A program made the translations under genes and the position numbers. A stretch of DNA of 64,000 nt from Gracilaria domingensis (Eukaryota > Rhodophyta > Florideophyceae > Gracilariales > Gracilariaceae). Below, piece after piece: positions 1,809 to 48,162 of the stretch. Each line of letters opens with the position of its first letter. Position 1 is the first letter of the stretch. The notes beneath the pieces are model-generated. The model was not told where the DNA came from. It searched no databases and saw only the letters and a program-made list of their open reading frames with translations. The DNA is taken from positions 151,561-215,560 of the forward strand of contig VCMS01000042.1 in assembly GCA_022539475.1 (NCBI GenBank). The letters run 5' to 3'.

Positions 1809-1813
1809 GCTGT
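1809..1813. repeat. Target-site duplication GCTGT, left copy
   Basis: GCTGT directly precedes the TGTAG terminus of the LTR and is repeated exactly at 26946-26950, directly after the other LTR. A 5-bp duplication is the usual size for Gypsy integrases. Removing one copy plus the element restores the reading frame of the host gene. Confidence 0.95.
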
Positions 1814-2279
1814 TGTAGTATAGTGGCACGGGTCACTAACCACGGGGAGGAATGCTCCAAAGGATGAGGGCCAACGGCGAGACCACTGGTAAGGAGGTGC
1901 AATGGGCGAGCGCTACCTGTCGTGCCTGCAGGAAAGGGCGAGCGACGTAGCGATGGCTTGAAAACCTGAATGGTGTTGGTACTTACTAACCTGAGGGTCA
2001 AGTAGTTGCCAAGAGGGTCTCTGACTTTACCACAGGAGGGAGGCGCAGCTCGAGCGGCCCAAATATCGGCTGCGAGGCGCCTCAACCTCTGGAGTGGTGC
2101 ACTGTAACGCAGTGCAACACGTGTACTAACTATACTACCTATGGTACAAATAATACAAGTAAAAATAAATAGGCATATGGGGGCCGGCAAGGGCCCACGT
2201 GCACCACTGATGGGCCACTCCTGCACACACCAGCGATGACTGACCATCCGGAAACCAACTTAAGGCTCATAATACTACA
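1814..2279 (-). repeat. 3' LTR of the giant element
   Basis: This 466-bp LTR begins TGTAGTATAG and ends ATACTACA on the plus strand, so its ends are short inverted repeats. It matches 26479-26945 except at about three positions. On the element strand it is preceded by a G-run polypurine tract (2280-2293), which makes it the 3' LTR. Confidence 0.95.
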
Positions 2280-2293
2280 CAGCCCCCCCCTAG
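2280..2293 (-). other. Polypurine tract next to the 3' LTR
   Basis: The minus strand reads TAGGGGGGGGCTG directly before the LTR terminus. Position and composition fit the primer for plus-strand DNA synthesis. Confidence 0.75.
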
Positions 2294-2328
2294 ACGCTGA
2301 CGTCCCGGCAGTACCAACACTGGAGAAG

Positions 2329-4113
2329 ATGGCTTCCATTGGTGGCGATCTATTCACTCCTGGCCAGTACGACGATGTACCGGTGCCTCGCCTTCCGTCG
2401 AACGTACCCTTCGCACCAGATTCTAGTGGCGTTTCTACGGCAACTGGGATGTATACCGGCCAACCTACGGGGAGTGGCGTTCGTCCCGGCAATGCGTTTG
2501 ATCACACCGTAGGCAGAGGTCCGATGTGTAGCCGAACCGCCAACATGCCCTACACCGTTCAACATTATATGAGCCAAGAGGCTGACTTCTTCGACGCCCG
2601 CCGCTTCGCCGCCATCCCTGAGGTCACCCGCGGTCCTAAAAAGTCGCGCCAGGTCGCCTGGCTCCAGCGCTGGGTGCATATGCCCGTGAACGCCCGAACG
2701 GTTCCGACCTGTAACGGTGGTGTGTTCACCGATATGGAGTATGTCCGAACCCTGGCCGAGGAGGACTACCAGCGCCGCGTCAACTCTATACTCTGGGGGT
2801 TGTACGGCGAGTTCTCAGATCCGTCGGTGCCTTTTCCTCCACCGCAACACAATCTCTTAGGCTTGATGGCCTTTCTACCTCCGTATGATAAAATGTATTG
2901 GATGGTAGACCGTGTCTACTGGAACGACATGGCTGAGCCAGATAGTAGAATGCGGACCAATCTTCAGTACCTATTTTGTTGGCACCAAGTTGAGTTCCAT
3001 GACATGGAAGCGCCTGACAGGATCGGACTGTACCCACGGCTGCCTCTATTTGATGATCCAGAATGGGAGGAGTTCTGGAGGGTTTCCAACCTCCTGGTAG
3101 TCCCTACCCCACCGCTAGTCGCTTATCACTCGCGACAATTAATTCTGCAACCAACCGATCGACGGAACTGGCTTACCTGGCAGGTCCTTACCGTGGAGTG
3201 GGCAGTTTTTGTCCTTATGGCCTTCTTGGACACCTGCCAGTACGGTGTCCGTTGCAACGTGCGCACCAAAGACTGGAGAGTGTGGAGCCACACGAACGAC
3301 TTTTTCAGCCCTTGCGGTCGCCTCGTTCCGCTTCCACGGATGTTGATAAAGTATCTGCGCGGTCTGGGGATACAAGATATCGTTCGTGGCACGGAATATC
3401 CACCTATTCGCGTAGAGGAGCTGCTAGATTACGTATGCCGTGTTCAATGATCGTCCACGCCTGGTTTCCTTTGGTATAGCTACGAACAAGACCGCTTCGA
3501 GAGAATCCCGCGCCACCCAGCTGGAGAAGATGACGGCAGAGCGTACTCCGCATTTCCCGTTAGGACAGCGCCAGTAATGGTACGTCGAATAGTCGTACCT
3601 GACTATTTTCCACGAGGCAGGGGGTTTGTGGGCGCATGTCTCATGTCCGATAGTCCTCTAAAACCACTTCCAGCTATGCCCTTCGGAGTCGGAAGCGCAA
3701 CAAACGTAGAACCAGCGCGATCATGCCTACAGAGAGTCTCTGACACTGCCGACACTGTTACAATGGTCGTCTCAGAAGAGGAACCAGCTCATATGGAGAA
3801 CGCGGGGGATATGCCGGTTGAATCATCTCAAATCATTCCTGTGGCAAATGCGGCCGCGGTGCACGATCGCTCTCTCGTAGTACTTCCACGGGGCTTGCCT
3901 CGCAACGAGTCAGCGGGGAGAATCTGTGCTTTCGAGAGGGAGGTATCGTCTGTGTTCTGCAAAGTGGAATATAGTCTGTTCGCTTTGGAAACTAAGCTAG
4001 TTTTGGGGCTATTTGGGGCGCGCGAGGGATTGGCAGAGGCTGACACTCAAAAAATTAAGAAATTTTGGAATATTAAATTCCATCTTGCGCAGTTTAATTC
4101 TTGGGTCCTCTAG
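2329..4113 (+). CDS. Antisense ORF beside the 3' LTR, unknown function
   Basis: The frame runs opposite to gag-pol and is open from within the LTR (2236) through 3450. After one in-frame TGA (3448-3450) it stays open in the same frame to 4113. I chose the ATG at 2329 as the first start outside the LTR. The product would be about 595 residues: a Pro/Ser-rich N-terminus, a Trp/Tyr-rich middle (about 170-375) and a variable acidic tail. No known domain or membrane segment was recognised. The middle and the part after the TGA are colinear with the broken ORF at 58374-60360. Shared features include a Pro-Pro/Ser-Arg-Leu-Leu segment followed by Trp-x-Val-x5-Glu-Trp-Ala, an Asp-x2-Gln-Tyr motif, and a later Pro-x-Tyr-x-Pro-x-Gly block. 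Conservation in two diverged elements argues for a real gene of the element. Whether the TGA is read through or a lesion is unknown. Confidence 0.75.
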
Positions 4114-6333
4114 TTTTTGTAGAGGTTCTACTTCGTCGCACCACCCCATTCACTCTTTTCCGCGACCCTCTCTCAAAACTGCGCTCGTGCTAGTTTGCGT
4201 TTCCATTTTCTCCCATGTTGCAATGCCAATCGCAACTCATCCCACCTCAATCATCTCATCACTTCTTCCCAGTCCACACCACCCCCACTCTTTACCCATT
4301 TATGGCCCATCACGCGTTCGCATCCTCCCTCTCTGTCTCCGCAAACGTCATTTTTTAGAAGTCAGGTAGGCAACCCTTCCCCTTCTCGTATACCCGTCTC
4401 GCCCCAAAACGGCTTCCAATCCCTCCCCATCCTTCTCTCCTCTCGCACTTTGAAATCTGGGCCGCCATTCGCATTGCCATGCCCTACTCCGAAATCCAGT
4501 CAATACCGGAGCCTCGATTGCATCCTGCAACACCTTTTCCAGCACCTTCCTTTTCTCCTTGCGCTTTTTCTCCAAAAGACTCTTCTAGTCCCTAAACCTA
4601 CCACATATCGCCTTCGTTGTCAAACATGGCCTCTTCTGTGCCACAAATCTTCCGGCACTTGCTATATATTCCCTTCTGTGTTCGCTGGGCGTAATTGAAA
4701 TATGGTGCTCTCACTAGATCGAAGAAGTCAATACGATACACTGCAAGCAAAGAGTGCTGAGCTGTTCGAACTTCTAATCTTGTCGCACGCGCTTTTGTTC
4801 ACCTACGGTCATCCTCTTGCTCTTATTCTAGTTCTCCTGGGACGCTCTTCCGTGAAACTTCCCATCTTTTACTAGTTTGTTCTCACTAATTATCCTCCTT
4901 ATTATCATTAAATAGTGTTTTTAACTACGTTGCCTCGACCTGGAGTACTCTTGACATTTACTACTTCTTTCTTGTATGTATTTAAAAAAGTATATCCTTA
5001 GTAGCGTCATGCTTTTTAACAGTAGCCATAATGGTGTCCCAAGCTCTCGCTCACCGGCTTGCGCGGAGAGCACAGAAAGAATGCATTCAGCAACGGCGTG
5101 TTCTTGCTCAGAAAGTGTTTGAGCAATTCCGAGAGTAGCTTTGGCGTGGAACTCAGCAGCATGTCAAACACAACATTTACTGAGAAAGCCTCTTGCGAGA
5201 AAAGCTGCACAAGCGCGCTTGAGAGTGCGCGCCCCGCCTGCATCGGCGCCATCTGCCTGCATCGCGTGCCGCCTAACTCGGCGAAAAGACAGCGCAGAAG
5301 CGCACGCGGTATGGATTACATGCTATGGAAGACTCAACGAAGACGCCGCCGCGAAGTGGGACGTGACGTCTTTATTTGCGCAGGCATATACAGCAGTAGC
5401 GGCCCCAGCATTTCTAGCATTGGAAGAATGATTCCTTGACTGCATTCAAACAACGAATACTATGAACAGCACATCATTAAAATGGTCTTCTCCATTTGAA
5501 TAACGCTCTTTCAGAACCATTGGAATGGTCCATACTGAACAAGGGATGAGCGCTACAATACAATCGACTGGATTCCTTACATTGAATAGTATGGCCCGCA
5601 AACTATTTGAATGCATTCTTCATCTGAATGATATATCCTTATAATGCAAAATCATTTCAATGCCTCGAATGCCCATACTAATAATACCGCCGTCGCGCGT
5701 CATCAGAATAACCACAATCCGCGGGGCGCGGCGCACACGGCACGGCGGTGGGGCGCTCACATTTAAGCTGCGTGCGCTGCTCCGTGGAGGGATTGAACGA
5801 AGCGCACGAGCGCATACTTGCTTCAATTCAGTGCCGTGCACTACATAGGGGCCACCCCGTAAGGCAGCACGTCTCGCCTTCGCTACACATACGGGCCGCC
5901 TCAACGGCGCACCGCGTCCGGCGCGACCACTGCCGGCTTGTGGCTGCGGTGATGGCAGTGCTATCAACGCAGCCACAAGCCGCTGCCAAAAAAATGGTTT
6001 CTATTTGAATGCTTTGAATGGTTTGACTGATAATCCAATATGTTTATTCAAATGGTTTCGCAAGTATGAATGGTGAAGCACCATTTCCATTGGAATGCAT
6101 CCACTGCTTTGACCGGTGTAAGCATTTTTTTATTTTAAACGCATTTGAATATACTGTAAGATGTACTACGAATGGCAAAACATTCGAATTGCAGTTGGTC
6201 AACCATTCTTCCAATCCTAGCAAATGCTGGCATTTGGACCGCATACCGCGGAGGCGTCTCGCCACGCCTCCTCTGGCTGACTATTGGCGGTGATCGCCGC
6301 TGCCGACTCAGGTGCTGATCTCCGCAGTCCTTC
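4114..6333. other. Cargo region without recognised gene
   Basis: The first 600 bp are pyrimidine-rich on the plus strand, hence purine-rich on the element strand. At 5440-6240, AT-rich stretches hold many copies of a short motif ATTTGAATG or its complement. They flank a GC-rich core (about 5690-5960) that contains an inverted repeat of CGGCTTGTGGCTGCG at about 5936 and 5968. This may be a small non-autonomous element. No protein family was recognised in any frame. Confidence 0.5.
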
Positions 6334-9300
6334 ATGATCTGCCGACGCCGCGCCGCTCTTGCTCGCCGCGTCGGCAATGTCAGTCAGAACAAGGCCAAGC
6401 GTCAGAAGCGCATCAAGTGGACCCCGCAGGAAGTCGAGGCGCTTCGCTGTGGCGTGCAGAAATTTGGTGAGGGCCGCTGGGCCGTCATACTGCGAGAGAA
6501 TGCCAACCTTTTCAACCCGGTACGAATCAGCGTAGACCTCAAGGATAAATGGCGCATTCTGTCGAAATCACACAAGACTTCAGATAAGCCGGACAACCGT
6601 GTTCCTTCTTCGCCTGCATTGCAATCTACTCCGACGCCTTCCACTCCTTTAGCCTCACCTCCGCGCGTGCGTTCACAACCACCTCATCCAATCGCCTTGC
6701 GTAATACCCCTCGTGTTTCTGAGAAACTCGCTTTTCCCAGTTTGCCGGCCCTTCATGTTCACCGCCCTCAGGTGCACAGGTCTCTGTTGAATCCGAAGCG
6801 AGTTACCCCTGAGCTTGTGTCCCCAATGGGTGACGTAAGGAGGAACCATAGCCTTCCACAAACTCACCCTTCCGACAATCTCCCAGTGTTTGGCTATCAC
6901 CAGATGCTTCGATCTAGGCCTGTTCAAGAGCCGAGCGAAGCTATCCGCGGTTGAAACCTGTCCGGCTTTTATTTGCACCCGTCTCCCGCAATGACCAAGC
7001 ACATCCCTTCGGAATCAAGACCTATGTTTATGCCGCTTCGGTTGGAACATAGATCTTTGGTCACTCCTAGCAATGCTTCGTTGCTTGTTGGCAATGGTGC
7101 TGCACCACAAGACACCGCGTTTGCCAGATCTCTCGAAGAAAGGACTTTACCCCATGTCCACCACACCCTAGGCCCTCGAGCGGATCATCGAGCTTCAGAA
7201 GTCATGCATCATGGAAGCGCGGTACATCCTGTACCAATGTCAAGCCCGCAGCATTTCAATACCGTTTCTCAGGCATACTCATCCTCCGCACTGCATATAT
7301 CTCGCGAACCACCGGTTACAACGGCAGGAGGTCATCGCTCCTACGCTATGCATGGTGAAGAAAGACCGCCGCCAGTAAGGATTCTTGGAGCGCCGATTCA
7401 TCCGGCACATGCGTACCGTCATCAGCCCGTGGCACAACATGTTGTCACCGATTCCAACCATTTTCGTTCTCTCCATGGCTTGAAGGAGCGCAGTGTCAGT
7501 GAACCTACAAATGAGGTGTATCCTGTTCCAAATGAGAAAAGCGCTGCACAGGATATGAATTCTCGCTACTCTCGCTTTGTCTCAAGGGAAAGCGGTTCAG
7601 AGAGCCAGCGAGAATTTCATGTCCCAAGGCCTAATCGTCATTCACTGGAAGAGGTGGTTCGAAACCACAGAGGTAACGCCAATCAACCACAGCAGTCCGA
7701 ACAACGCAATTTGCGAGAGAGTGAATTAGGTTCTCGCGGGAACCCGCGAAATGGTATGGGTCAATCTCTTGATGACGAAATGAATCTGCGGTCGTCAAAC
7801 TCAGAAAACCGTTTTACCCATCATCAGACTGAGGATGACCAGGATCATTATTTGCGCGCACCTGGAAATGATGGGCAATTTAGTTCAAGACAGGGCGATA
7901 GTGATGTGCATCAGCGCACCAGTTCTCCTCCGCATAGCCGTTTTAGCCAGGAAGAAGAAGAAGAAGAAGTAGAAGTAGAGGATATGAATCGCAACAGTGT
8001 GGAACACGGTCACATTGGCATGGGAGATCAACAATCGGCCCTTGTTCACACACGGGAGTGCATCCATAATGAAGACTCAATGCACCAAGTAGAAGTGCCT
8101 CGTGAGGTGTTGGACAATGATGGAGATGACGCGGATGACGAACATATCAGTCATCCCCACACTGACCCCAACCCGTCAAATTTGTATCATGGAAATGATG
8201 TTGACGATGATCAGTTGGCTTCACATCATCCTTTCGGCCTGGTCAATCCCGATGTCGGTCATTCGGACGATGGCGAAGCACGTGACGATAATCATACGTT
8301 GGCACTTTCAGAGCCTCAGCAGGGAATTGAGTTGCAAGTTCGACTGGAGGAAGAATCACAGGATTGTTACGCGCCGGAGCGCCCCCGATCACCCTCAACG
8401 GATCAGGAACATCAGCATCAAGGACAGCATTTCGGTACCTTTTCTACGCGCGATAAAAAGATTAAGAGCGGTCAGCTTGGCGATATTATAGAAAGCGAGA
8501 GAGGGGGACATTTACTGGGTGCGAGTGGAGACCGTGAGGCACCTAGTGGTATGCAACGCACGAAGGAAGAGAATCAACATACCACCAATTTGAAAAGGTC
8601 AGTAGAAAACTTCACTGAGCATCAGAGTCCTGAAAATAGCACAGGGCATGGTGCGGTTTATGGCGGTCGTGACGATGACAGTGGACACCCGGAACGCCGG
8701 GTGCTTACTGGTCTATATGAGAAAGATTCTGATGTTCAACAGCTTGACTCAAATAGTCGTGTGCGAAGTATTGTAGGAGAGATTAACGAAATGTCTGCAG
8801 GCGGTATGCACTCAAATGAAAGCGAGTTTACGCGAAAGGGCGATTTCAAAGAGGAGAACGACGAGGACCGAAGCGAAGCGCATCAAGCAAAGGATACTCG
8901 GGGAATGCTCGAAACTGGAACTATTGTGAATGACAGAGACGGGGTGAGAAGAGGTTCACCGATATTACAACCCTCCAGTGCTGTTTCGAGAGCACACAGT
9001 GGCAACGAGAAGGATCCCACGTTGGACATGCCCAATCGGGCATCATTTGAAGGGCAAAACGATCCAGTGAACACGTCCAGCAGTGACAGCTCAAGAGAGA
9101 TGATCCCTCTTGTACATTCAGCGAATAGCTTTAAGGTGATGAGAATCAAATCATCCACACAGAGACAGGAGAAAATGGTCATCGAGAGTCAAGGCGCGAC
9201 TGAATGCAAGTTACAAGCTTCCATGAGAAATGGTCATAGTGTTCCGATTGGATGCGATAAAGGAGTAATGCGGAATAGGAAGCCAGAAATTCATCAGGAG

Positions 9301-9483
9301 AGTTATGAAGATAAATCGACCACAGGAGGAGGAGGGCGACATCGCGTTGAGGCAGTTGCAAGTTTGGCAAATCTTCTAAACCCGACGTCGTTTGACAGCG
9401 GTCCTCGAAGAAGTGCTTACAATCGAAGACAGGAAGGAGAAGGAGAAGAAGGGGGAAAAGAAGCACATGTCCGGGAAAAATGA
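6334..9483 (+). CDS. Telobox Myb protein with long disordered tail
   Basis: A single Myb/SANT-type repeat lies at residues 26-78 with tryptophans at 29, 49 and 73. It contains the telobox signature VDLKDKWR (67-74), the motif of telomere-repeat-binding proteins such as TRF and plant TRB/TRFL, which bind double-stranded TTAGGG-type repeats. A Pro/Ser-rich linker follows. After an in-frame TGA (6952-6954) the same frame is open for another 836 residues up to 9483. That part is rich in Ser, His, Glu, Asp and Arg, has an acidic run near residue 540, and shows no fold. The two halves share one frame, and no splice pair preserving frame was found around the TGA. The start ATG follows a CAG-rich leader. 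The gene sits inside the retrotransposon cargo, antisense to gag-pol. DNA binding is a family inference. Confidence 0.75.
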
Positions 9484-9764
9484 AGTGCCTGCTGATGGCG
9501 TTGAACTCGATCCCATATGTGTTCTTTCGAATCTTGGCAAAGGATTACCGGCAGCATGGAAGTCGATTGTATCCAACTGCACTGGAGCTTCGCAGCCGCC
9601 AGTATGAGTTCTTTTGGTACAATAGAAGTACACAGTCGATCTGGGAATTGCACACTGTTGCGGCGTACGACTGCTTGTGAGTTGCCGTTTTATAGCTCAC
9701 GAATGAGTGGGACAACGTTGACCTATCGCTGATGTCGCAGGTACCTGCATCCTGGACAGAGTGA
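9484..9764 (+). other. Spacer with a WW-domain-like remnant
   Basis: Plus-strand codons at about 9588-9660 read YEFFWYNRSTQSIWE, which resembles the second half of a WW domain (Tyr-Tyr-x-Asn-x2-Thr-x-x-Ser-x-Trp-Glu). The N-terminal tryptophan and surrounding gene are not apparent. It may be another captured fragment, but the match is short. Confidence 0.3.
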
Positions 9765-10241
<477 letters not shown>

Positions 10242-11114
10242 CGCCCTCCTCTTGTCAACTACTGGGCATATGGAGGTAAGGACGGGATGGAACAGCGTGA
10301 ATGCTGCAACAACCAGAGAGCCTAACCGAGATTCGTATCTGGGTTTGTTCAATGTTTTCGTTATCGGCAGATCCCAAATGAAAAAATGCCTTTATCAGCA
10401 TTTTGTGACACGCAGCCGCTGCCAAACGTTATCTACAAAGGTAGATATCCAACCCCAGTATATACTGTATATTGTCAGCGTTCCTCATAAACTCTAGGCC
10501 CTCCAATATTGTTAATGCAGACGTTAGCCCCTAGAAAAGCCCGCATTCGTACTACGAATGCGCGGTTTTCTATTTCGTAGTAGCCTGCTATATAACCTAT
10601 ATGCCAAGCAGCAAAGTTCGTAGTTAATTTGGCTCAAACTTGGCTTGTCGATGAAAGTCAATTCTGGACATTCCATAGTTCGCTCTCTCTGTTATCGGAT
10701 ATACAACGCGTAGCTTAATTAGGAGGGAGAGCAGAACTTTTCTGTTCCGCTCGCGAGGAAAGCCAGCCCGCCCTCTGAAAACTGCTGGCCACCGTCGAAG
10801 ATTGGAATGTCGATATGTGTCGCTTCGCCAAGAAAGGCAGACCGCAGGAAGGCGGATCGCAGGTGTGTTAACATAGTTCTTCATTCTGAGACTGATGATC
10901 AAGATGACTCCGTTCGGACATGTAGGCCTCACGAAAGAATAGAAGGATACCAACCAACGAACGAACGGGACCATAAGGATACCTCTGCAGGCAATTGGAA
11001 CCCACGCGCAGAGCTCGGAAAGCGCATGACAATGTCAGCAGACAGTGGACGTACAGCGACACGCTTTCTGTCTCGTGGTTTCGCGACATGGTGGGAACAT
11101 GGCGACTGGTCATG
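10242..11114. other. Cargo spacer without recognised gene
   Basis: No domain was recognised on either strand. A perfect 21-bp palindrome (CGCATTCGTACTACGAATGCG) lies at 10542-10562. Confidence 0.45.
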
Positions 11115-11625
11115 ATTGAAGCCAACTGTTGGGCAGCTAGTGCTGGCTGTGGAGTGGCCATAATTGCCGAAATGACTGCAACGCCATCAGCCCCAGCCCG
11201 TTTGCAAAAGACAGCGTTGTCTACTTTGATGCCGCAAATGGCGACTAGCGGAATTCTCGAGCTGGTGCAGCGTACCAATTGTCGTAGCCGGTGTTCACCG
11301 AGCGGCTCTCCTGCATAGACTTGGAGGAGGTTGGAAACACGGATCCCACACCTATTTAATCCGCACCATCAGCTATCGCAGCGTCTATTTCTTGTTCGGT
11401 TGCAGCAGAGACACCAACGATAGCGTTGTTGCCCAGCCGCTGTCTGGCAACAGAAACAGACTGATCATCCTGACCCAGATGCACGCCATCTGCACCCAAA
11501 AGGGCGGCGAGTTGGATATCGTCGTTCACCACGAACGCTACGTCGGCGAGCTCTGTGATTCTGCGCAGTTGCGTAGCGAGCTCGATAAACTGTGCGCGAG
11601 GAACGTTCTTGTCTCGAAGTCTAGG
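11115..11625 (-). pseudogene. thiE: Thiamine-phosphate synthase fragment
   Basis: The minus strand reads RLRDKN, then VNDD, LGADGVHLGQDD, IVGVSAAT, GVGSVFPTSSK, PLGEHRL, IPLVAICGI and AGADGVAVISAI. This is the ordered set of phosphate- and pyrophosphate-binding motifs of ThiE, the TIM-barrel enzyme that joins the pyrimidine and thiazole halves of thiamine. An in-frame TAA near 11355 replaces the residue after GAD, and a frameshift separates the SMQE and PLGEH segments. The N-terminal first strand is absent. An AG just before the first recognised codons could be an old intron boundary. The fragment runs opposite to the phytoene desaturase piece 0.9 kb away. Confidence 0.9.
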
Positions 11626-12470
11626 CGTTGGTCAGTGGGAGTTCGGACAGGGGGCAGCAAAACCGGGGGTTGAAAAAGTACTCCACAAAGGTGACTTGGC
11701 GCGCGTTCTGTGCAGTGGTCACCACTTGTGCAACGACGTGCTGCACGCTGCGGCCTCACGCGGTTCTACGATCCTTGACCCGGTACACCGATGCATCGAA
11801 GCTGCGGCGCGAGACGCGCATGCGCACGGCAGCCGCAGCGCATCTCGGGGGGCTTGCAGGCGGCGCGGGGGCAGGCAGGGACGAGAGCGCGACGAAGGCG
11901 GACATGGGGAGGGGAACCACCACCGAAGCGCGCAGCTGCGGATCGCGAGGTGGGCGGCGCGCGCAATGAGCGCGCACATTTGCAGGGCGGTTCACACGCA
12001 GCGCTTATGCCGCTGCGCGACGCGGGTATGAAGACGCGCGCACCTTCGCGCTGGCGAGTGCATCAAAGACACATGGCAGCAGCACCTCGTGGGTCTTTCT
12101 TCGCTCGTGCGCCCTCGTAACATGCATCTACCGCCTACCGTGCCCTCCACGCGTCCGCGTTGCGCCGCGCGTCCGTCCTTCTGTACGCCTCCGTGCGCCG
12201 ATCCTACCATCCTCCTTCTCCTCCGCCCATGGCCAACCTGACCAAGCCGCAACGTCTGTTGCGCCGCTCGCACTTCTGGCAGGTTTTTCTGCGCGATAAC
12301 GTCGTCGTCACGTGCCACGGAAAGGGCGTCAGCCTCACTGGCGGTGGCGGACGGGGTTTGCGGCGGCGTCGCGGCGGGAACGCGAACGCGTGGATGGAGG
12401 TTCGCTGGCGTCGGGTTGTTGCAGAAGGACATCGTCAGACATGTCATAATATCATTCTGTCGTACTGGCT
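11626..12470. other. GC-rich cargo segment without recognised gene
   Basis: Long GC-rich frames overlap on both strands, as expected from composition alone. None showed a domain or matched the missing N-terminus of the neighbouring thiamine-phosphate synthase piece. Confidence 0.45.
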
Positions 12471-16898: not shown

Positions 16899-16983
16899 GT
16901 TGCGCCATAGGCTCTAGCTTCGCGTCTTGCGCTGCTTTTCAAAAGTAGCGCAAGACTCGAGAAGCTAAAGCCTATGGCGCAAC
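16899..16983. repeat. Hairpin 1 of the hairpin array
   Basis: An imperfect inverted repeat with arms of about 41 bp starts GTTGCGCCATAGGC and ends with its complement. A few mismatches lie mid-arm and the loop is only a few bases. Confidence 0.85.
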
Positions 16984-17021
16984 AAACCAAGTTGGTTTCT
17001 CGGCGATCTTGGATCTCTGCC

Positions 17022-17347
17022 TGTTCGGGATAGGCGATTCTGGTACTTGGTTGAGACATAGGTTTCTGTCTCGTTTATCGCATCTTGCGGTATGTTTGCT
17101 GCATGGGCATTCTCGGTGTCGTTGCTTGTGAGTTCTTGCTTCGAGACCTTTCGCGTTTTACGATGAATGGATTGCTGGTAATCTAACCGATCACTTTCCT
17201 TCTTCTTCTTCCTTTTGCGAGTTACTAGGTCCCTCGACTTTTCTAGCGCAACGTTTCTGTTTTGCTTTATCAATAGTACGTTCCATCGCAATTCAAATGT
17301 TTCCAACGGAGCATTGACTAACTTATGGATACTTTCTGCTTGCGTAT
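17022..17347. repeat. Scaffold unit 1 of the hairpin array
   Basis: This roughly 326-bp segment starts TGTTCGGGATAGGCGATTC and ends GGATACTTTCTGCTTGCG. It recurs at 17436-17766 with scattered differences. It separates hairpin 1 from hairpin 2. Both copies hold a Lys/Arg-rich minus-strand frame, but it is not conserved as one open frame. Confidence 0.9.
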
Positions 17348-17430
17348 ACAGGTAAACGACCAATTTTATTTCATCTCTCCAGATCCATCATCGATCTTGA
17401 GAGACAAAATGAAATTGGTCGTTTACCTGT
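17348..17430. repeat. Hairpin 2 of the hairpin array
   Basis: Arms of about 33 bp begin ACAGGTAAACGACCAATTT and end in the complement at 17430. The sequence is unrelated to hairpin 1 although both sit at equivalent positions in the array. Confidence 0.88.
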
Positions 17431-17435
17431 CCGAC

Positions 17436-17766
17436 TGTTCGGGATAGGCGATTCTGGTTCTTGTTTGGGATATAGGCTAGATTCTCGTTTATCGCGTCTT
17501 GCGGTATGTTTGCTGCATGGGCATTCTCGGTGTCCTTGCTTGTGAGTTCTCGCTTCGACACCTTTCGCGGTTTACGATGATATGGTGGGCTGGTAATCTA
17601 ACCGATCCCTTTCCTGCTTCTTCTTCCGTTTGCGAGTTACCAGGTCCCTCGACTTTTCTAGCGCAACGTTTCTGTTTTGTTTTATCAATGGTACGTTCCA
17701 TCGCATTTCAAATGTATCTAACGGATCATTGACTAACTTATGGATACTTTCTGCTTGCGAATAAAG
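17436..17766. repeat. Scaffold unit 2 of the hairpin array
   Basis: Diverged direct repeat of 17022-17347, lying between hairpin 2 and the third hairpin cluster. Confidence 0.9.
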
Positions 17767-17812
17767 GTAAATGACTTTTGATGCGGACGTAGCTCACGAG
17801 TAGCAGGTGCAG

Positions 17813-17972
17813 GTTCCTCAAGTAGGGAACCATGCATCTGGGCATGGTTCCCTACATGAGGAACGGAGAGGATGAGGCGCTTCGCGCCTCATCCTCTCGG
17901 AGTGCGTATGTGTTCTACCGATCCAGCACTATGGTGGAGGTGCAGTCTGCGGCATCTGCCGCAGATTGCGCC
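17813..17972. repeat. Hairpin cluster 3 of the array
   Basis: Three successive inverted repeats lie here. The first, 17813-17864, has arms of GTTCCTCAAGTAGGGAACC type. The second, 17866-17898, has perfect 15-bp arms of GAGAGGATGAGGCGC around TTC. The third, 17939-17972, has 16-bp arms with two mismatches. None matches hairpins 1 or 2. Confidence 0.85.
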
Positions 17973-18397
17973 TACACCCGCTCCATTATGGGAAAGTGGT
18001 ACATGTAATATAGCGAAGTAGTGGTTAGCAAAAGCGGTCGATAGAAGAATAGATACGAATAAAACGGTATGAGTTCATAATGGGCATCATCTGTACTAGC
18101 ACTAGTATTCCATGCGTTGCAGGGTATCATTCCGCAGAAGGTATCGTGTAATGTGCACCTTAATGGAAACTGAACCTAGACTTCGCGAAATACGGTTCAG
18201 GTAGCCCTCGACTAAAGAACTAGCACGAGTGGAAAACCCACCAGTATTTACTGCACAGAGATTCTGGACGACCCAAGCAATTATCTGCAGATTTTGAAAT
18301 AATTGATCTCGATATTTTTTCAAAAAATTTACTGGACGACCCTTGCCAATTTCTGGACGACCCTCGCCAAAAACTAGCATCTGCAAGAGACAGACGA
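17973..18397. other. Spacer without recognised gene
   Basis: A short direct repeat of CTGGACGACCCT(T/C)GCCA occurs at about 18333 and 18353. Nothing else was recognised. Confidence 0.4.
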
Positions 18398-19009
18398 TTG
18401 GTATTCGCTTCTGTTCCTGCTCTTGACATAGTCCCCAGTACCTCGACCTTCCTGGAGGAGCACAACTTCGCCGCATTCAAAACGCTCAGTGCTGAGATGT
18501 TAAACCAAGGTTATAGTGGGCACTGGAGGCTAGGGGACGTCGCCCTGTCCGCGCGTTCATGGCTGCGTCGGTCCAAGAGGTACGAAGCGCTCGTCGGAGA
18601 GACGCAAGAGCTAGGGAAGGATCTAGCAAAAGTCGCTCGCGAGAACGCGCAGCGACTCAAGCAAAACATTGAAAGAGTTTTGGAGCAGAACGAAGCTCAG
18701 CTCAACAAAACCATCATGACTGGTTTCGACCGTCGAGTTCAGGAAGTCGTTACGACGATGTCCGATTCCGAAGGCTCCGATGCGCCAGATACAATGCCCG
18801 ATAATGTTGCTGTACCACCACGGGGTGGTCCGTTCAAACGCCTTCGGCAGTCTGATGGCGCTCCACAACGGGCTAAGGCGCCTTCAGTTGGCGGTGCCCT
18901 GCCACCCGCAGCGCACAGAATCCGTCGTCGGGGGCGTCCTGAATCAGGTCAACGGGTTGCTGAAGACAATCCCACCGACGGCGATAGGCACGAAACAGAC
19001 AATGTTTGA
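18398..19009 (+). CDS. Hypothetical coiled-coil protein
   Basis: A 203-residue frame opposite to pol. Residues about 70-120 are a heptad-like stretch rich in Glu, Lys, Gln and Leu (EALVGETQELGKDLAKVARE, then AQRLKQNIERVLEQNEAQL), suggesting a coiled coil. The C-terminal third is basic and Pro/Gly-rich with an Arg-Arg-Arg-Gly patch. No family was recognised. A second frame overlaps from 18780, so the coding end is uncertain. It is cargo of the giant element, between the hairpin array and pol. Confidence 0.4.
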   Translation: MVFASVPALDIVPSTSTFLEEHNFAAFKTLSAEMLNQGYSGHWRLGDVALSARSWLRRSKRYEALVGETQELGKDLAKVARENAQRLKQNIERVLEQNEAQLNKTIMTGFDRRVQEVVTTMSDSEGSDAPDTMPDNVAVPPRGGPFKRLRQSDGAPQRAKAPSVGGALPPAAHRIRRRGRPESGQRVAEDNPTDGDRHETDNV

Positions 19010-19665: not shown

Positions 19666-22600
19666 CTACGGGTCATACGCTCCCTCCTTAAAGGCGCGCT
19701 CCGTGCGCCCCTGTTTCTTCCAAAACCTTCGGATAAAGTTCTCAGGGATGTGCTCCCTTGGCTCCCACTGATCAAACTCCGGTGGATAACCGTACCATCG
19801 GGCCTCGTAGATGACATTACCGTCGTCATCGATACCAGCGGAGACAATGTGGTCGACGACATACTCCTTCGGTAAGACCTCTTCTGGCAAATCCATTGTA
19901 TCCAATGGACCAAAGCCAGACGGATCCGGTTGGACTTCCGGCGCAGAGCGCTCTGTTCCCATGGCGAGACTGTCATCCAAAGGTGTGAACTCCTCCTCTG
20001 GGAGGTCTATCTCATTCAAAGGGGCACGACCACTGGCGTTTTCGCTATCGTTGGCAGTTGCCAACGGCATGGTATGACCCACGGAGGGGTCCGCGCTTAC
20101 CACCTTTGGCGTAGATCCTGGAATAGAACCGGCGGTTATGAAGCCACTGGGAGGGACGCTTGGAGCGTTCTTAGCAGGAGCGTAGGGGGAACCGTTGGAA
20201 GTCTCTGTGCCTGATGGGCAGTCACCTATTGGAGAGCACGCCTCGTCAGTCGGAGGCTTGGCCGCTGGCTGTAGCTGGTTACCGCTGTTGGGGGACGTTT
20301 CCACAGTGGGTGTCGTTCCTTCTTCGGGTACCATCGGGGCAGCGGAAACACGGTCAACTGTTACCGTGTCCTCTAGGCCATCTCGCTCGATCACAACCGT
20401 GTGGGAGGTAGAACGCAAGACCTTGTAAGGTCCTGTAGACTTCGGAAGTAGTTTCCTCGAGGCTTGTTCTATTTCATCCAATTGCTTCTCCGAGGGAGCC
20501 CTGTCCAGGTAGACCATCGTTCCAGCCTTGAAGGAAGGAGTGTAGCGAACGGCTTTATCGAAGTTTGCCTTGTACCTGAGCTGGGCTCGCGTAAGCGTGG
20601 TGCGAGCTGTGTGGAGTATATCATCAATCCTTCGGCGTGCATATCGTTTAGCCTGCGTCGGAGTCATGCCTTCGGTGATGTCCTGAGGGAACCAAGAAAA
20701 CTTCACATCCACTGCCAATGGTAATGGCTGCCGAGTCAAAGTGAGATCAAATGGAGTGGTACCAGTGGATTTGTGCACCTGATTGTTGTAAGCATAAACC
20801 AATGGTTCAACATAGTCGTCCCAATCTAATTGGTGCTCAGCGGTGTAGTGTACCAAACGGTTAACCAGCGTTTTATTGAACCGCTCGGCCTGTCCATTGG
20901 TCTGCGGATGATAAGCTGTCGTCGTGACATGCTTGATACCTAAGGTAGCACAGACGTGCGAAAAGAACTTCGACACGAACTGACTACCATTATCCGTCAG
21001 GAGATAGAGGGGCAATCCATAAGGATAAACCCAGTGCGTAAGGAACGCCATTGCCACATCCGTTGCGGTAGTGTTCTTGAGCGGGATAGCCCTTGTGGTT
21101 TTGGTAAACCTGTCGGTGACAACCAGGATGAACTGGTTCCCATGTACTGACTTCGGGAGTGGCCCGAGGATATCCATCGCGATAAATTCCAATGGTCCAG
21201 CAGCTGGGAACAATTTGAGCTTAGCCTGATGGCGCGCTCGAGTTCCACGAACCTTTGCGCACGAAGCACAGGTCTTCGCCGTGTTCCAAAGGTCATTAGC
21301 CATAAACGGATAGTAGAAATGCTTCCTAAGGGTTTGATACATCCGACTACCTCCAGGATGACCAGCAAACCGTGGATAGTGTGCCAAATAGAGGAATCGA
21401 GCCTGAAGGGACTTGGGAATAACCTTTTGGATAGAACCATCTAGTGGAGACCTTCGGCAAAGTAGTCCGAATCGGTCGACGTCAAAGAGGCATCCCTTGG
21501 TTCCGACGAGCTCTGCCTTTTCTTTACAGAACTCATCATTCTTCTGAGCCTGTAGGAGGTCTTCCAGCGTGATGGGAAGTAGCTCTTTTTCCTCAGGCAC
21601 AATTGCATTAACCTCCAGGTCCAGTTCTTCATGTTCACATTCCGTTGGCCAATCAACTAAGTAAACTTCCGTTGGGTCTACCTCTCCATCGGTACACTGT
21701 ACCGTCGCCAGCAGGAAGTCATCCTCAGGATCTGTTTCGTATCCTTCGAGATCTGGTGTTGGTATTTCGTCATCCAAAGAAGTATCATCATCTCCGTCGG
21801 TAAGGATGCGACTCAGTGCATCCGCCGATTGGTGCTTCACTCCAGGTCTATAGGTTACATCATATTCGAACTCAGAGAGCCGTAGCCTCCACCTGGCTAG
21901 CCTGCTGGACGCGTCCGTCATATTCAACAGCCAGCGGAGAGAGTGGTGATCTGTCCTGATGGTGAAGCGAACTCCTTCGAGGTAAGGCCTCAAGGTCAGC
22001 ACTGCCCAAACGATGGCAAGGCATTCCTTTTCGGTAGTGCTGTAGTTCCGTTCGGCGCTGTTCAGAGTCCTACTCCAGTAACCAATAGGTCGATAGTCCT
22101 TCGGAGATTCCTGTTCCTGTAGGAGAACACATCCAATCTGTCCATCGGAAGCGTCAGTGTCCAAAATGTATGGTTTATCCGGCTTCGGTAATGCCAGTAC
22201 GGGAGGATTCAATAGCTTATCCTTCAAGGTTTGGAATGATTCGTACTGTTCGTCCGTCAGGCAGTCAAATTCCGACGGCGTACCCTTCTTCAGCATGTCG
22301 TTCAGAGGTGCCGCGATCCTTGAGAATCCTTGGACAAACCTACGGTATACATTGCAAAGCCCAAGGAATGAGCGCAACTCCGTGTGGGTCCTCGGTGGCT
22401 TCGCCAGTCGGATAGCGTCCGTAGTCCTTTTGGCGACCTGAAGCTTTTCAGGACGAACCACATGGCCAAGATAATCTACTGAGGCCTGGAAAAAGAAGCA
22501 CTTCGGCAGCTTCAATGTAATTCCAGCCTCACGGAGAATCCTCAGGATTGACCTCACGTGGGTGAAATGTTCCCGAACGGTTTTCGAAAATATAATTACG

Positions 22601-24084
22601 TCGTCCAGATAAACCAAGGCAAACTTCCATTTCACTCTGGATAGTATTATATCCATTGCCCGTTGGAAGGTAGCCGGTGCGTTCATCAAACCAAATGGCA
22701 TCCGTGTAAAACGGAACAATCCTTCGTGGGTTGTGAACGTCGTGAGGGGATTCGCGTCGTCGTCCAGTGGTATCTGCCAATAGCCCCAATTGGCATCCAG
22801 CGTGGTGAATACCGTTGCTTCACCTAAGGAATCGAGACAATCGTCCATTCTAGGAATTGGATAACTGTCCCGTTTGGTCATCGCGTTCAACCTTCGGTAG
22901 TCAATGCAAAACCTTACGGACCCGTCCTTCTTCGCCGCGAGAACGAAAGGACTAGCCCATTGGGATTCGTGCGGTGGCGCTGGCTCGATGACGTTAGCGT
23001 TACGCATCTTCGCCAGTTGCTCCGCTACGATCTCGCGTCCCTTAAGGCCTGTACGGTATGGGTGTTGGTACACCGGCTTAGCGTCATCCTTAAGGTCTAT
23101 TCGGTGTTTCGTAGCCCGAATCTCTCCCAATTGGCCAGACCACATGCATTTGAATTCTCGGAGAAGCTCGATAACCTGTGGACGGTACGATTCGAATTCC
23201 TCTCCAAGGTTTACCTCCCCCTCCCAAGTCTCGACGTCCTCGTCGTCATTGGGGGTGAGTTCATCCCATGAGGTTTCCATGATAGCCATTGGAGCTGGTA
23301 GTGCAATACCGATGACAGTACCTTTTGGTAAGCGTACCGGGCGGTCCCGGAAGTTGCTCATATTAACCAAAAAGGGAACCTTCGGTCTGCAATCCATGAT
23401 TCCATTGGCCATCAAAGAAAGGTGACGCTGAATCGTCTTCGGGTGATTCTGAATCGTCACCAGACCAGAGGTTTCGCAGTGAGCCAAAGCGGCGACCTGC
23501 GTCATGGGCGGTATCGTTATCGCCCGGGATAACCGAACCTTATTGGAAACGGTATTCTTCGCCAGCGGAGGGCGACGTGGGTTGGCGTCGGGACCAGATT
23601 TGGAACCGATAATCGCCACTGGACGGGTGCGGTAGAAGGAAACTTTCCGGAGGCCGGGGTAGATTGCCTTCACGTATCGGTCGATGAAGGACGTCCCAAG
23701 GAGACATTCTGCACCTAAGGTAGGACACACAAGGAACCAAGTACGGACCCGAAGGTCACCAATCTGGAGGCAGAGAGGAATGATTCCTTTAATATCCATC
23801 GGTCGTTTTGATGCATCTGTCACCCTTGGAGTCTTTCTAACCTTCACCACACCCTCCCAAACAGCCGGTAAAACCTTCGGATGAACCAAGTTTGGTCCTG
23901 CCCCAGTGTCCAGGACGCTGGTCACGACCCGTGTCCTCGAGGCAGTTATTCCAATGGTGTGTCTAACTTTATAGTTCTCCTTCCGCAGGATACAAACTGG
24001 CGTATCCCCTTCGGCTTCCATTTCGTCACACCACTGGTCCAAACTTCTGTCTTCTTCCTGTGGCTTCGGCGGTTGAGTATCCAA
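19666..24084 (-). CDS. pol: Pol polyprotein with chromodomain
   Basis: An uninterrupted 1,472-residue frame. Aspartic protease has LDTGAG at 58-63. Reverse transcriptase spans about 340-545 with FCIDYRRLN and the catalytic YLDD at 492-495. RNase H starts with LDTDAS (641-646), followed by TDHHSLRWLL. Integrase has an HHCC finger (about 902-943), a D-D-E triad at about D971, D1031 and E1067, and a TAYHPQTNGQAERFN motif. A chromodomain lies at about 1407-1456 (VIYEARWYGYPPEFDQWEP). This order and the chromodomain place it among Gypsy chromoviruses, whose chromodomain guides integration to particular chromatin. The annotated start is a TTG. The frame is open upstream and overlaps the end of the preceding ORF near 24180, so it is probably reached by a -1 shift at an A-run rather than by its own start. 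It appears functional. Confidence 0.93.
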   Translation of the reverse strand: MDTQPPKPQEEDRSLDQWCDEMEAEGDTPVCILRKENYKVRHTIGITASRTRVVTSVLDTGAGPNLVHPKVLPAVWEGVVKVRKTPRVTDASKRPMDIKGIIPLCLQIGDLRVRTWFLVCPTLGAECLLGTSFIDRYVKAIYPGLRKVSFYRTRPVAIIGSKSGPDANPRRPPLAKNTVSNKVRLSRAITIPPMTQVAALAHCETSGLVTIQNHPKTIQRHLSLMANGIMDCRPKVPFLVNMSNFRDRPVRLPKGTVIGIALPAPMAIMETSWDELTPNDDEDVETWEGEVNLGEEFESYRPQVIELLREFKCMWSGQLGEIRATKHRIDLKDDAKPVYQHPYRTGLKGREIVAEQLAKMRNANVIEPAPPHESQWASPFVLAAKKDGSVRFCIDYRRLNAMTKRDSYPIPRMDDCLDSLGEATVFTTLDANWGYWQIPLDDDANPLTTFTTHEGLFRFTRMPFGLMNAPATFQRAMDIILSRVKWKFALVYLDDVIIFSKTVREHFTHVRSILRILREAGITLKLPKCFFFQASVDYLGHVVRPEKLQVAKRTTDAIRLAKPPRTHTELRSFLGLCNVYRRFVQGFSRIAAPLNDMLKKGTPSEFDCLTDEQYESFQTLKDKLLNPPVLALPKPDKPYILDTDASDGQIGCVLLQEQESPKDYRPIGYWSRTLNSAERNYSTTEKECLAIVWAVLTLRPYLEGVRFTIRTDHHSLRWLLNMTDASSRLARWRLRLSEFEYDVTYRPGVKHQSADALSRILTDGDDDTSLDDEIPTPDLEGYETDPEDDFLLATVQCTDGEVDPTEVYLVDWPTECEHEELDLEVNAIVPEEKELLPITLEDLLQAQKNDEFCKEKAELVGTKGCLFDVDRFGLLCRRSPLDGSIQKVIPKSLQARFLYLAHYPRFAGHPGGSRMYQTLRKHFYYPFMANDLWNTAKTCASCAKVRGTRARHQAKLKLFPAAGPLEFIAMDILGPLPKSVHGNQFILVVTDRFTKTTRAIPLKNTTATDVAMAFLTHWVYPYGLPLYLLTDNGSQFVSKFFSHVCATLGIKHVTTTAYHPQTNGQAERFNKTLVNRLVHYTAEHQLDWDDYVEPLVYAYNNQVHKSTGTTPFDLTLTRQPLPLAVDVKFSWFPQDITEGMTPTQAKRYARRRIDDILHTARTTLTRAQLRYKANFDKAVRYTPSFKAGTMVYLDRAPSEKQLDEIEQASRKLLPKSTGPYKVLRSTSHTVVIERDGLEDTVTVDRVSAAPMVPEEGTTPTVETSPNSGNQLQPAAKPPTDEACSPIGDCPSGTETSNGSPYAPAKNAPSVPPSGFITAGSIPGSTPKVVSADPSVGHTMPLATANDSENASGRAPLNEIDLPEEEFTPLDDSLAMGTERSAPEVQPDPSGFGPLDTMDLPEEVLPKEYVVDHIVSAGIDDDGNVIYEARWYGYPPEFDQWEPREHIPENFIRRFWKKQGRTERAFKEGAYDP

Positions 24085-24173
24085 AGGCTTCTCAAATTCC
24101 CTTGGGAGAACTTGTTCACCTTTGGCGGTGAGGCTAGTATCCTCAGAGGGGCGGCTCGCCTCAAGCCGCTCCT

Positions 24174-24707
24174 CTATGCTTTTTCCGACTTTGTTTCTCC
24201 ACCAATGGCATACGCCTGACCGCTGGTCTGTAAATCTTCTGGAATATCCGTCGGTGGTTCCTGGGTAACTTCATCCACCGGAGTCGAGACGTTGTTAACC
24301 TGTGGAGCCTTGGCCGGCGTTTCCAACGGGGTAGCGTATCTCGAGGTACCTGGGGACGATGTGTAGCGTGGAGCCTGACGGTTGAACATTCCTTCGGACC
24401 TCCGTGCCTGGTAGTTCTCGTTCCTTAAGGCCATGAGTTTGTCCTTCGTTTCCTTCGGCAAGAACTTCATGCAATCGCATGGAGTAACCGTTGACAGGCA
24501 TATGTAGCAGGCCTGACGGGAACGTTGAAAGACATCCCTACGTGGTTGAACCGGAGAATATTTCGGCGTAGGCTGCCCGGAAGGGGTAGTTGTTCCAGTT
24601 GACGGTATGGAAGGTGCACCAGAAGGAGCAGAACCAAAGGAAACTGCGAGGACATTTCCGTCGTCCCCGTATAAACCTGAGGCATTGCTTTCAGAACTCT
24701 CAACCAT
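24174..24707 (-). CDS. Zinc-motif nucleocapsid-like ORF between gag and pol
   Basis: A 177-residue frame beginning ATG in a different frame from both neighbours. Residues about 64-80 contain CYICLSTVTPCDC, a Cys-x2-Cys-x6-Cys-x-Cys arrangement instead of the CCHC knuckle. A conserved stretch follows (RNENYQARRSEGMFNR) and then a Pro/Thr-rich tail. The second element has the equivalent at 50120-50411 with CRICLS and REKNYYLRREEGYYNR, so the ORF is real. It probably supplies the RNA-binding part of Gag. The frame is -1 relative to gag and is open upstream into the end of gag. Confidence 0.7.
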   Translation of the reverse strand: MVESSESNASGLYGDDGNVLAVSFGSAPSGAPSIPSTGTTTPSGQPTPKYSPVQPRRDVFQRSRQACYICLSTVTPCDCMKFLPKETKDKLMALRNENYQARRSEGMFNRQAPRYTSSPGTSRYATPLETPAKAPQVNNVSTPVDEVTQEPPTDIPEDLQTSGQAYAIGGETKSEKA

Positions 24708-24727
24708 ATGGGCTTGAGAACTCTTCC

Positions 24728-26353
24728 TTAATATGGTTGCCTTCCTCTGGCATCATGATCGGCGGCCCTACGAGAAGTTCTATAGGTCTTCCCGTAACCT
24801 TCGGCGTAATTCACCAACTGCCTGTAGGAGAGGTTGGAATGGTCCATATGGTGATTTCGAACGTGCGTCCTGATGGCAGGCAGCAATCCAGCGATGAAAT
24901 GCTGCTTCAGCCGGTTCTCGGAGAACACATTCCCACACCTATAGGCCTTTCTCCAAAGCTGGTCGGCGTAATCTTTCTCGGTTACGTTCGAACCTTGCCT
25001 GTAGGATATGACTTCCTGATGGGCGTCCATAATGACGTCATCCGTCGCGTATGTTTCCAAAAGGTAATGCACGACCTCCGGATAGGACCTAAGGAGTTCC
25101 CGATCGGTTGCGTCGACGGGGTCCGTAGTTCCAGAGATCTTAGAAACCACATGGTCGTGCGCTTGCCCATGGAGAAAAAACTGAAAAAGATACAGAGCGG
25201 CACCCTCATGGACACCGTTCTGATCACAGGCCGTACGGAACAGGCTGAGAAACCAAAGGATAGAAATGGGGTCGGATCCCGAGAACTTCTCCGTTACGGT
25301 TAGCTGCATCCGTTTAGCCCATCTGGCGACCTTTTTGGCCACCGAGCTGGAGTACCGCGCCGACTGGTCAGCCAGGCGATACGTGCGGTAATTCAATACT
25401 CTCTTGAAGAGTTCATTGGTTGTTACCAACGGCTTGAGGCGTCGAACAGCCGCCTCGTCCGTCTCTGAGCCACTGGAACTCGACGAATCCGAATCGGATT
25501 CGCTACCGCTGGAGTTCCTACAGCTTTTCCTATGGTTCTTCGACTTCTTCCTTCTGCTGCTTCTCTTCTTCCTTCGGTCAGAACTTCTGGCTTCCACTGG
25601 CAGCTCTTCATCTTCAGCTTCAACACCAATGGTTGCTCGGGGGTTCTGGACCCCGGGGTACCTCACGGGTGGCACGGCCATTAGGCCTTCTTGCCGAGGG
25701 GCGTCTCTATTGCCCCCTGGACGTACGCCCGATTGGTCTACCTGTGGTTGAACCCGGCGAGGGGCTGGCAACGCAGCTGCTCTCGGTGGTTCGTAACGGG
25801 GTTGCCATACGGATACCAGTGGATTACTTTGGATTCCACCCACGGAGGGCGGCGGGCCTACCTGGCGAGTCACCTCACGGCGGATACCTAAGGCAAGCGA
25901 GTCGACGAAAGAGTCGGACTCGAGAACCTTTGGGAGGACACGTTCAGCCAGTTGGTCGGCGTGCTCTGCGAGAGCGACAGAGACTCGGAGATCCACAAGG
26001 GTTTCGAGTCGAGCGTCGAGCATCTCTCGAACCTTCGGCCATAAGACATCAGCAAGTCCATCGGTAGTTACTGAACCAACGGTTTCTTGCGGTGGTGCCT
26101 GTGGTGTGTTGAGTTGCGAGCGGTACTCGTCGAGCCGTTCTCGGAGTCTTCCAGCCAAAGAGGCGTCACGATTAATCCTCTCGGGATTATCCACGGGTGT
26201 GAGGAGATTAACCTGTGGCTGCGAGCGGGTACTCCGACGGTCACTCACGTTGTCACCAGAGGGTCCGGCAACATCAGCGGGCGGTGGAGGAGTTCCGATG
26301 GCTTGAGCCACTGGTGTACGAGGGTCTTCTTGAATAGGTTGATTGTTATCCAT
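24728..26353 (-). CDS. gag: Gag protein
   Basis: 541 residues. The N-terminal 250 are Pro/Arg-rich and predicted flexible. Residues about 255-305 form an SR/DS-rich tract (RRKKRSSRRKKSKNHRK, then serine/aspartate repeats). Residues about 315-525 form the capsid-like core, with WFLSLFRTACD, LYLFQFFLHGQA, and a YRQGSNVTEKDYADQLWRKA segment typical of Gypsy retrotransposon Gag. It is colinear with the plus-strand gag at 48163-49850. It is the first gene after the primer-binding site and is intact. Confidence 0.88.
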   Translation of the reverse strand: MDNNQPIQEDPRTPVAQAIGTPPPPADVAGPSGDNVSDRRSTRSQPQVNLLTPVDNPERINRDASLAGRLRERLDEYRSQLNTPQAPPQETVGSVTTDGLADVLWPKVREMLDARLETLVDLRVSVALAEHADQLAERVLPKVLESDSFVDSLALGIRREVTRQVGPPPSVGGIQSNPLVSVWQPRYEPPRAAALPAPRRVQPQVDQSGVRPGGNRDAPRQEGLMAVPPVRYPGVQNPRATIGVEAEDEELPVEARSSDRRKKRSSRRKKSKNHRKSCRNSSGSESDSDSSSSSGSETDEAAVRRLKPLVTTNELFKRVLNYRTYRLADQSARYSSSVAKKVARWAKRMQLTVTEKFSGSDPISILWFLSLFRTACDQNGVHEGAALYLFQFFLHGQAHDHVVSKISGTTDPVDATDRELLRSYPEVVHYLLETYATDDVIMDAHQEVISYRQGSNVTEKDYADQLWRKAYRCGNVFSENRLKQHFIAGLLPAIRTHVRNHHMDHSNLSYRQLVNYAEGYGKTYRTSRRAADHDARGRQPY

Positions 26354-26456
26354 AATGGCGGTTGCTTATATTACCAGTCCGTCGGTAGTCCAGATCCAAT
26401 GGTAGAATTCCGGTAGTTCGTCTTTCCTAGAGGTCGTTCTTCACTTCCGTGCGGAA

Positions 26457-26474
26457 TTCTAGGTCGGGAGACCA
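26457..26474 (-). promoter_or_regulatory. Primer-binding site of the giant element
   Basis: On the element strand, four bases after the 5' LTR, the sequence TGGTCTCCCGACCTAGAA begins with TGG, complementary to a tRNA CCA end. The same 18 bases occur at 48092-48109, one base after the 5' LTR of the second element. The tRNA was not identified. Confidence 0.8.
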
Positions 26475-26478
26475 GAAA

Positions 26479-26945
26479 TGTAGTATAGTGGCACGGGTCA
26501 CTAACCACGGGGAGGAATGGTCCAAAGGATGAGGGCCAACGGCGAGACCACTGGTAAGGAGGTGCAATGGGCGAGCGCTACCTGTCGTGCCTGCAGGAAA
26601 GGGCGAGCGACGTAGCGATGGCTTGAAAACCTGAATGGTGTTGGTACTTACTAACCTGAGGGTCAAGTAGTTGCCAAGAGGGTCTCTGACTTTACCACAG
26701 GAGGGAGGCGCAGCTCGAGCGGCCCAAAATATCGGCTGCGAGGCGCCTCAACCTCTGGAGTGGTGCACTGTAACGCGGTGCAACACGTGTACTAACTATA
26801 CTACCTATGGTACAAATAATACAAGTAAAAATAAATAGGCATATGGGGGCCGGCAAGGGCCCACGTGCACCACTGATGGGCCACTCCTGCACACACCAGC
26901 GATGACTGACCATCCGGAAACCAACTTAAGGCTCATAATACTACA
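26479..26945 (-). repeat. 5' LTR of the giant element
   Basis: 467 bp, matching 1814-2279 apart from two substitutions and one extra A. It is expected to hold the promoter and polyadenylation signal. It is followed by the GCTGT duplication at 26946-26950. Confidence 0.95.
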
Positions 26946-26950
26946 GCTGT
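26946..26950. repeat. Target-site duplication GCTGT, right copy
   Basis: Exact copy of 1809-1813. These bases form the last codons of the upstream half of the split gene. Confidence 0.95.
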
Positions 26951-48090: not shown

Positions 48091-48091
48091 T

Positions 48092-48109: not shown

Positions 48110-48162
48110 GTGGGATTCGAGTTTTCCGTACAGAGTACCAAAAGATCTGAAGAAGATATCTC

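Follow-up and report, generated by a model that had tools for sequence, protein, structure and literature searches.

The 64-kb window analyzed here (contig C42, positions 151561-215560) is part of a 77.9-Mb assembly in 680 contigs, which was the genome searched throughout. Matches of its mobile-element proteins point to red algae, with the host near the Gracilariales, and a fungal host was rejected on these matches. The window carries an insertion of 25,132 bp between two copies of GCTGT. Two independent insertions add up to this length; it is not that of one element with cargo moved by reverse transcription. We consider it very probable that a 10.68-kb Ty3-type retrotransposon lies in a long reading frame and was later entered by a 14.45-kb Plavaka transposon in its antisense gene, a conserved coding part of the retrotransposon that would be transcribed from the element's 3' end, opposite to gag-pol, and would encode an accessory protein regulating or helping retrotransposition.

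Boundaries and coding content of the outer retrotransposon

Identical target-site duplications (TSDs) of GCTGT are found at 1809-1813 and 26946-26950, directly outside the LTRs. The coding strand of the retrotransposon is the minus strand, with a 3' LTR of 466 bp at 1814-2279 and a 5' LTR of 467 bp at 26479-26945. The LTRs begin and end with TG..CA and are separated by 2 substitutions and 1 single-base indel, which fits the young age proposed for the insertion in an earlier note on this DNA. A G-rich tract at 2280-2293 (minus strand) adjoins the 3' LTR and is likely to be the polypurine tract that the note had named.

Contigs C25 and C153 both retain the empty host site, with one GCTGT. It is spanned by an open frame longer than 1,000 codons; in C153 the frame has at least 1,161 codons (1018-4500 of the piece read) and continues past the end of that piece. 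When the flanks in the window are joined at one TSD, the frame stays open as well. Because of these empty sites and the open frame across them, the outer boundaries and the broken reading frame are as the earlier note described them: the boundaries are certain, and removal of the insertion restores the frame. C25 and C153 have the right flank at 99% identity, and C166 has part of it; the left flank is about 90% identical in C25 and C153. The interrupted frame has close copies in several contigs and matches DUF6589 only weakly (E = 0.02), and it may be a repeat itself. Contig C169 has the left flank, left TSD, and LTR found in the window, at 98% identity over the first 9.5 kb. Since it carries the insertion with the same left flank and TSD, some copies of the locus have the insertion and others lack it.

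Pol is open over 1,472 aa (19666-24084, minus strand), a length equal to that in the sister copy C69. Its domains have the order RT, RNase H, integrase (PF00078 at 385-542, PF17917 at 635-739, PF17921 at 889-946, and PF00665 at 964-1060), followed at the integrase C-terminus by a chromodomain (PF00385, residues 1408-1457 of 1472, E = 7.9e-07, above the cut-off). An aspartic protease is suggested by a weak PF13975 match (E = 0.077), which is below the cut-off. The intactness claimed for gag and pol holds for pol only: gag in the window lies in two frames, with the first 541 aa at 24728-26353 (minus strand) corresponding to residues 1-538 of the single 726-aa gag ORF in C69, and the remaining 177 aa at 24174-24707 (minus strand, different frame) corresponding to residues 550-726. 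Gag and pol are both split in another sister copy, C132. This domain content supports the assignment, also made in the earlier note, to the chromodomain Ty3-type (chromovirus-type) LTR retrotransposons. The element shares with the chromoviruses (chromodomain Ty3/Metaviridae) the RT-RNase H-integrase order, C-terminal chromodomain, TG..CA LTRs, and 5-bp TSD, and differs from them in its 10.68-kb length with an added antisense gene.

A second transposon lies inside the retrotransposon

The stretch at 3947-18396 (14,450 bp) is a separate DNA transposon with its own ends and its own 2-bp duplication, AT, at 3945-3946 and 18397-18398. The retrotransposon has sister copies in C132 and C69 (both about 99% identical) and in C130 (about 95%), which are colinear with the window on either side of this stretch and lack it. 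In all three sisters read at the junction, the sequence is a clean empty site, GGTATTGG, while the window reads GGTAT, 14,450 bp, ATTGG. Without the nested transposon and its TSD, the retrotransposon is 10,680 bp long. Of the single 25,132-bp element described earlier, the total length stands; the size of three to four times that of a usual chromovirus does not apply to the element proper. The note had proposed that sister copies be compared for the cargo, and had named its absence from them as the outcome that would count against a moving cargo. It is absent exactly from the three sisters read, and its ends occur alone at many unrelated places.

Two of the sisters have TSDs of their own, GAGGA for C132 and CTAAG for C69; besides the window, matching TSDs were seen only for the LTR pairs of C132, C69, and C16. 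Among 12 LTR pairs, defined as hits on one strand within 30 kb in a search that scored 40 of 82 candidates, 10 are spaced by 9.3-11.8 kb, one by 5.4 kb, and that of the window by 24.67 kb. The C130 pair is 11.8 kb apart.

A true 25-kb chromovirus whose cargo travels by reverse transcription would find some support in C169, where the LTR and the leftmost 11 kb of cargo are 97-98% identical to those of the window. The left flank and left 5-bp TSD of C169 are, however, the same as those of the window, so that it represents this very insertion, carried by a different copy of the locus, and not a second transposition. With the segment absent exactly in all three sisters read, and with ends and a duplication of its own, this explanation retains only a negligible probability; movement of the cargo by the chromovirus is ruled out by the empty sites in the sisters, the separate ends and TSD, and the LTR spacing. 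Beyond the spot matching window position 14914, C169 is a transposon nest or an assembly problem. More Plavaka left ends, in both orientations, follow the shared insertion there (C169:388001-428000).

We therefore return to two insertions, the order of which follows from the position of the DNA transposon inside the retrotransposon. The chromodomain Ty3-type element first entered the long reading frame, producing the 5-bp TSD, and the Plavaka-type transposon later entered the retrotransposon in the middle of its antisense gene, producing the 2-bp TSD AT.

The nested element is a Plavaka transposon with unusual ends

The nested transposon (plus strand as oriented here) has the ends CGTCTGT..ACAGACG. 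All 14 left ends and all 6 right ends that were read have these termini; they had been selected from matches extending to the end of the query, and the 14 left ends have 10 distinct flanks. The genome held 651 and 632 candidates for the two ends at first look, 40 of which were scored for each. In the copies read at both ends, 2-bp duplications were found in 3 of 4 (AT in the window, CA in C377, and AT in C65; none in C270). The C377 copy is 13,215 bp long. A related left end occurs at another place within a copy of the same retrotransposon family in C13. Two direct repeats with a period of about 414 bp lie at 17016-17775, and a tract at 9752-12413 is 98.8% identical in C169 and has no match in the C377 copy.

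The transposase ORF (14549-16285, minus strand) encodes 578 aa and matches PF18759 with E = 1.8e-17 (64 bits against a cut-off of 26.3, covering positions 41-273 of the 325 in the profile). The ORF is also 578 aa in C377 and reaches 1,011 aa in C16, and, as regards a complete DDE catalytic core, the final part of the profile is unmatched in both versions. In other copies the transposase frame is open for as much as about 1,100 codons or slightly more, and the long form of the transposase may depend on such copies. Next to the C16 transposase is a 472-aa ORF (6414-7829 of the piece read) with no Pfam match above the cut-off, located in DNA that has no match to the transposon in the window.

The PF18759 domain and the 2-bp TSD are shared with Plavaka transposons of the CMCT group, for which one study gives TSDs of 2 bp in PlavakaA and 2-3 bp in PlavakaB (Kojima 2025, PMC12730594). 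The ends differ from those of both types, being CGTCTGT..ACAGACG and neither TGT..ACA (A) nor CATCA..TGATG (B), and copies here are 13.2-14.5 kb long, encode a Myb protein, and reside in a red algal host. The nested element, present in many copies, is a Plavaka transposon, a type already known, with unusual ends. Giant Plavaka elements have reportedly been described in the genome paper on the red alga Bostrychia.

The Myb protein is encoded on the plus strand by a Myb-domain ORF of 206 aa (6334-6954) and its continuation of 836 aa (6973-9483), which in C377 form a single 1,048-aa ORF with the Myb domain at its N-terminus. The first 206 aa have 44 matches in the genome, at seven of which there is a stop-free open frame of 1,053 codons. 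The Myb protein is 51% identical to an Agarophyton chilense protein over 98% of its length and 62% identical to a transcriptome protein. The Myb helix in C377 reads VDLKDKWRN, which may resemble the telobox motif known from telomere-binding proteins. At 12604-12899 lie three palindromes that contain GTTAGGGT...ACCCTAAC; each of the two motifs occurs three times in the 64-kb window, always within these palindromes, while C377 has three of each and C16 has six of each. Our guess is that the Myb protein binds these TTAGGG palindromes. Harbinger and Nuwa elements likewise encode a transposase and, as a second protein, a Myb-type DNA-binding factor, as described for Nuwa in PMC12730594; the transposase family and the TSD differ, and the likeness of the Myb proteins is one of description.

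A conserved gene antisense to gag-pol

The ORF into which the Plavaka transposon was inserted runs opposite to gag-pol and lies in the interval separating pol from the 3' LTR. Its first part in the window (2329-3946, plus strand) contains one TGA, and its last part (18397-19009, plus strand) is cut off by the nested transposon; both are homologous to an intact ORF in C132. From its first ATG, the intact ORF encodes 742 aa in C132 and C69 and 728 aa in C16. The C132 and C16 proteins are 55% identical, with pS of 0.75 and pN of 0.31 overall, and pN of 0.15-0.32 versus pS of 0.72-0.84 across the first 450 codons. The closely related C132 and C69 copies are separated by 9 synonymous and 6 nonsynonymous changes (pN/pS 0.21). 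These substitution patterns indicate that the antisense ORF is under purifying selection.

Matches to the antisense protein were found at 61 places in the genome, with 60 of 336 candidates scored, and include families at 33-43% identity. Many of these matches lie in open frames of 600-825 codons and contain no stop. Stops are present in C130, C9, C398, C205, and C179, among others, as well as in the window. A family LTR on the same strand, at most 2.5 kb from the start of the ORF, was found at 16 of the 29 places compared among the 61; the 13 without a nearby family LTR include distant families, whose LTRs this search would miss.

A Pfam search of the antisense protein gave no family above the cut-off (DUF883 appeared below it, E = 0.28), and the TRP28 domain (PF04195) was not found in that search. 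The one homolog in protein databases comes from Gracilariopsis chorda, itself a member of the Gracilariales (63% of the query aligned at 44% identity, E = 5.5e-107); no other was present among the best 7,994 and 7,995 candidates scored, and a protein search with a three-sequence profile found nothing beyond the Gracilariopsis protein. Solved structures searched with three antisense proteins gave three weak matches only (best E = 0.01), and a fold prediction from the first 373 aa and one homolog, at pLDDT 31.7, gave no useful model.

Placement of the antisense gene in distant families

If the antisense gene belongs to the retrotransposons in the distant families too, the geometry of C132 predicts pol on the opposite strand about 1.8 kb past the end of the antisense ORF. 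Six places in families at 33-43% identity were chosen, of which four were read (C48 and C135 were left out), with 0.8-1.1 kb of sequence at each. All four contain RNase H/integrase sequence of pol, oriented as predicted: at 57.5% identity in C204, at 52% and 63% in two stretches in C185, at 61% with a short additional stretch at 54% in C27, and at 58% in C352. Since pol-like sequence covers roughly one-sixth of the bases in the window over both strands, by a rough estimate, agreement of both place and strand four times by chance is unlikely. Together with the selection pattern, these comparisons show that the antisense gene, which encodes about 740 aa, is a coding component conserved in this group of retrotransposons. 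It is not universal in the group, since at E = 1e-4 no antisense match was present in a related chromodomain element nested in C315 or in a second window element at about 47.5-57.9 kb.

This second Ty3-type element (47510-57900, plus strand) has direct repeats at 47510 and 57322 (300 nt, 93% identical), the right one of which begins with TGTAGTATAG, like the LTRs of the first element; its gag and pol are 40-59% identical to those of the first. A partial third Ty3-type pol with integrase and RNase H matches occupies 61670-64000 on the minus strand and runs off the window.

Origin and possible role of the antisense gene

We expect the antisense gene to have its promoter at the element's 3' end and to be transcribed in the direction opposite to gag-pol. 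Its product would be an accessory protein that regulates or helps retrotransposition, by analogy with Grande/Retand and HTLV; a role of this kind has been proposed for the antisense gene of HTLV. Retand, Grande, and RIRE2 are plant elements known to carry antisense ORFs in the interval separating pol from the 3' LTR; the function of these ORFs is given as unknown, with a nuclear location reported for Grande and a regulatory role proposed (PMC11963269, PMC7264820). The elements of this aORF-3R type are also Ty3-type with a conserved antisense ORF in the same position, and the region from pol to the 3' LTR, about 2.9 kb here without the nested transposon, compares with 2.9-6.6 kb in Retand (PMC11963269). 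Retand differs in belonging to a non-chromovirus lineage of flowering plants with antisense ORFs that mostly have TRP28 (PF04195), according to the same source, while the element here has a chromodomain, a red algal host, and an antisense protein without a Pfam family above the cut-off. A search of titles and abstract beginnings in one open-access library found no report of antisense ORFs in red algal LTR elements.

The lack of a Pfam family above the cut-off, the single outside protein among the best 7,994 and 7,995 candidates scored, and the stops in several copies would also be expected of a chance open frame, or of a host gene recently captured by one family. Neither would account for purifying selection accompanied by near-saturated synonymous change between subfamilies, nor for homologs at 33-43% identity in other retrotransposon families with a convergent pol at all four places read, and we regard a chance or captured frame as very improbable. 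Slightly less remote, but still unlikely, is that the gene yields no working protein and acts through a transcript that pairs with the genomic RNA. PMC7264820 discusses antisense RNAs of retrotransposons that may have regulatory roles; pairing of this kind is at odds with the amino-acid constraint across the first 450 codons, where pN is 0.15-0.32 against pS of 0.72-0.84. A protein-coding antisense gene that belongs to the retrotransposon is the reading we prefer.

The antisense gene also appears to have a history different from that of the rest of the element. When the window is compared with C16, gag has a pS of 0.19 and pol one of 0.27, below the value of 0.75 for the antisense gene between C132 and C16. 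Along pol, pS in the comparison of the window with C16 is 0.000 over codons 1-150, 0.66 over codons 1201-1350, and 0.30 over the final 122. The simplest reading is recombination that swaps gag and most of pol among lineages and leaves the antisense gene in place; a single crossover does not fit the renewed fall to 0.30 in the last codons of pol.

On balance, we lean toward a history in which a red algal clade of chromodomain elements has kept an antisense accessory gene of about 740 aa since before the split of its families, whose antisense proteins are now 33-43% identical. This gene, with no relative found outside the Gracilariales, would be a regulator acquired independently of the Retand-type and HTLV genes, and would remain tied to its lineage as gag and most of pol pass from one lineage to another.

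Implications for retrotransposon biology

With the nesting resolved, the size record falls away and a false claim is avoided. Within one mobile element, the nested transposon combines a Myb protein with TTAGGG palindromes, a pairing that can be tested. Additional antisense ORFs, as described for plant LTR elements, now appear as a conserved gene in red algal chromodomain elements, which provides a second setting for asking what the antisense genes of retrotransposons do.
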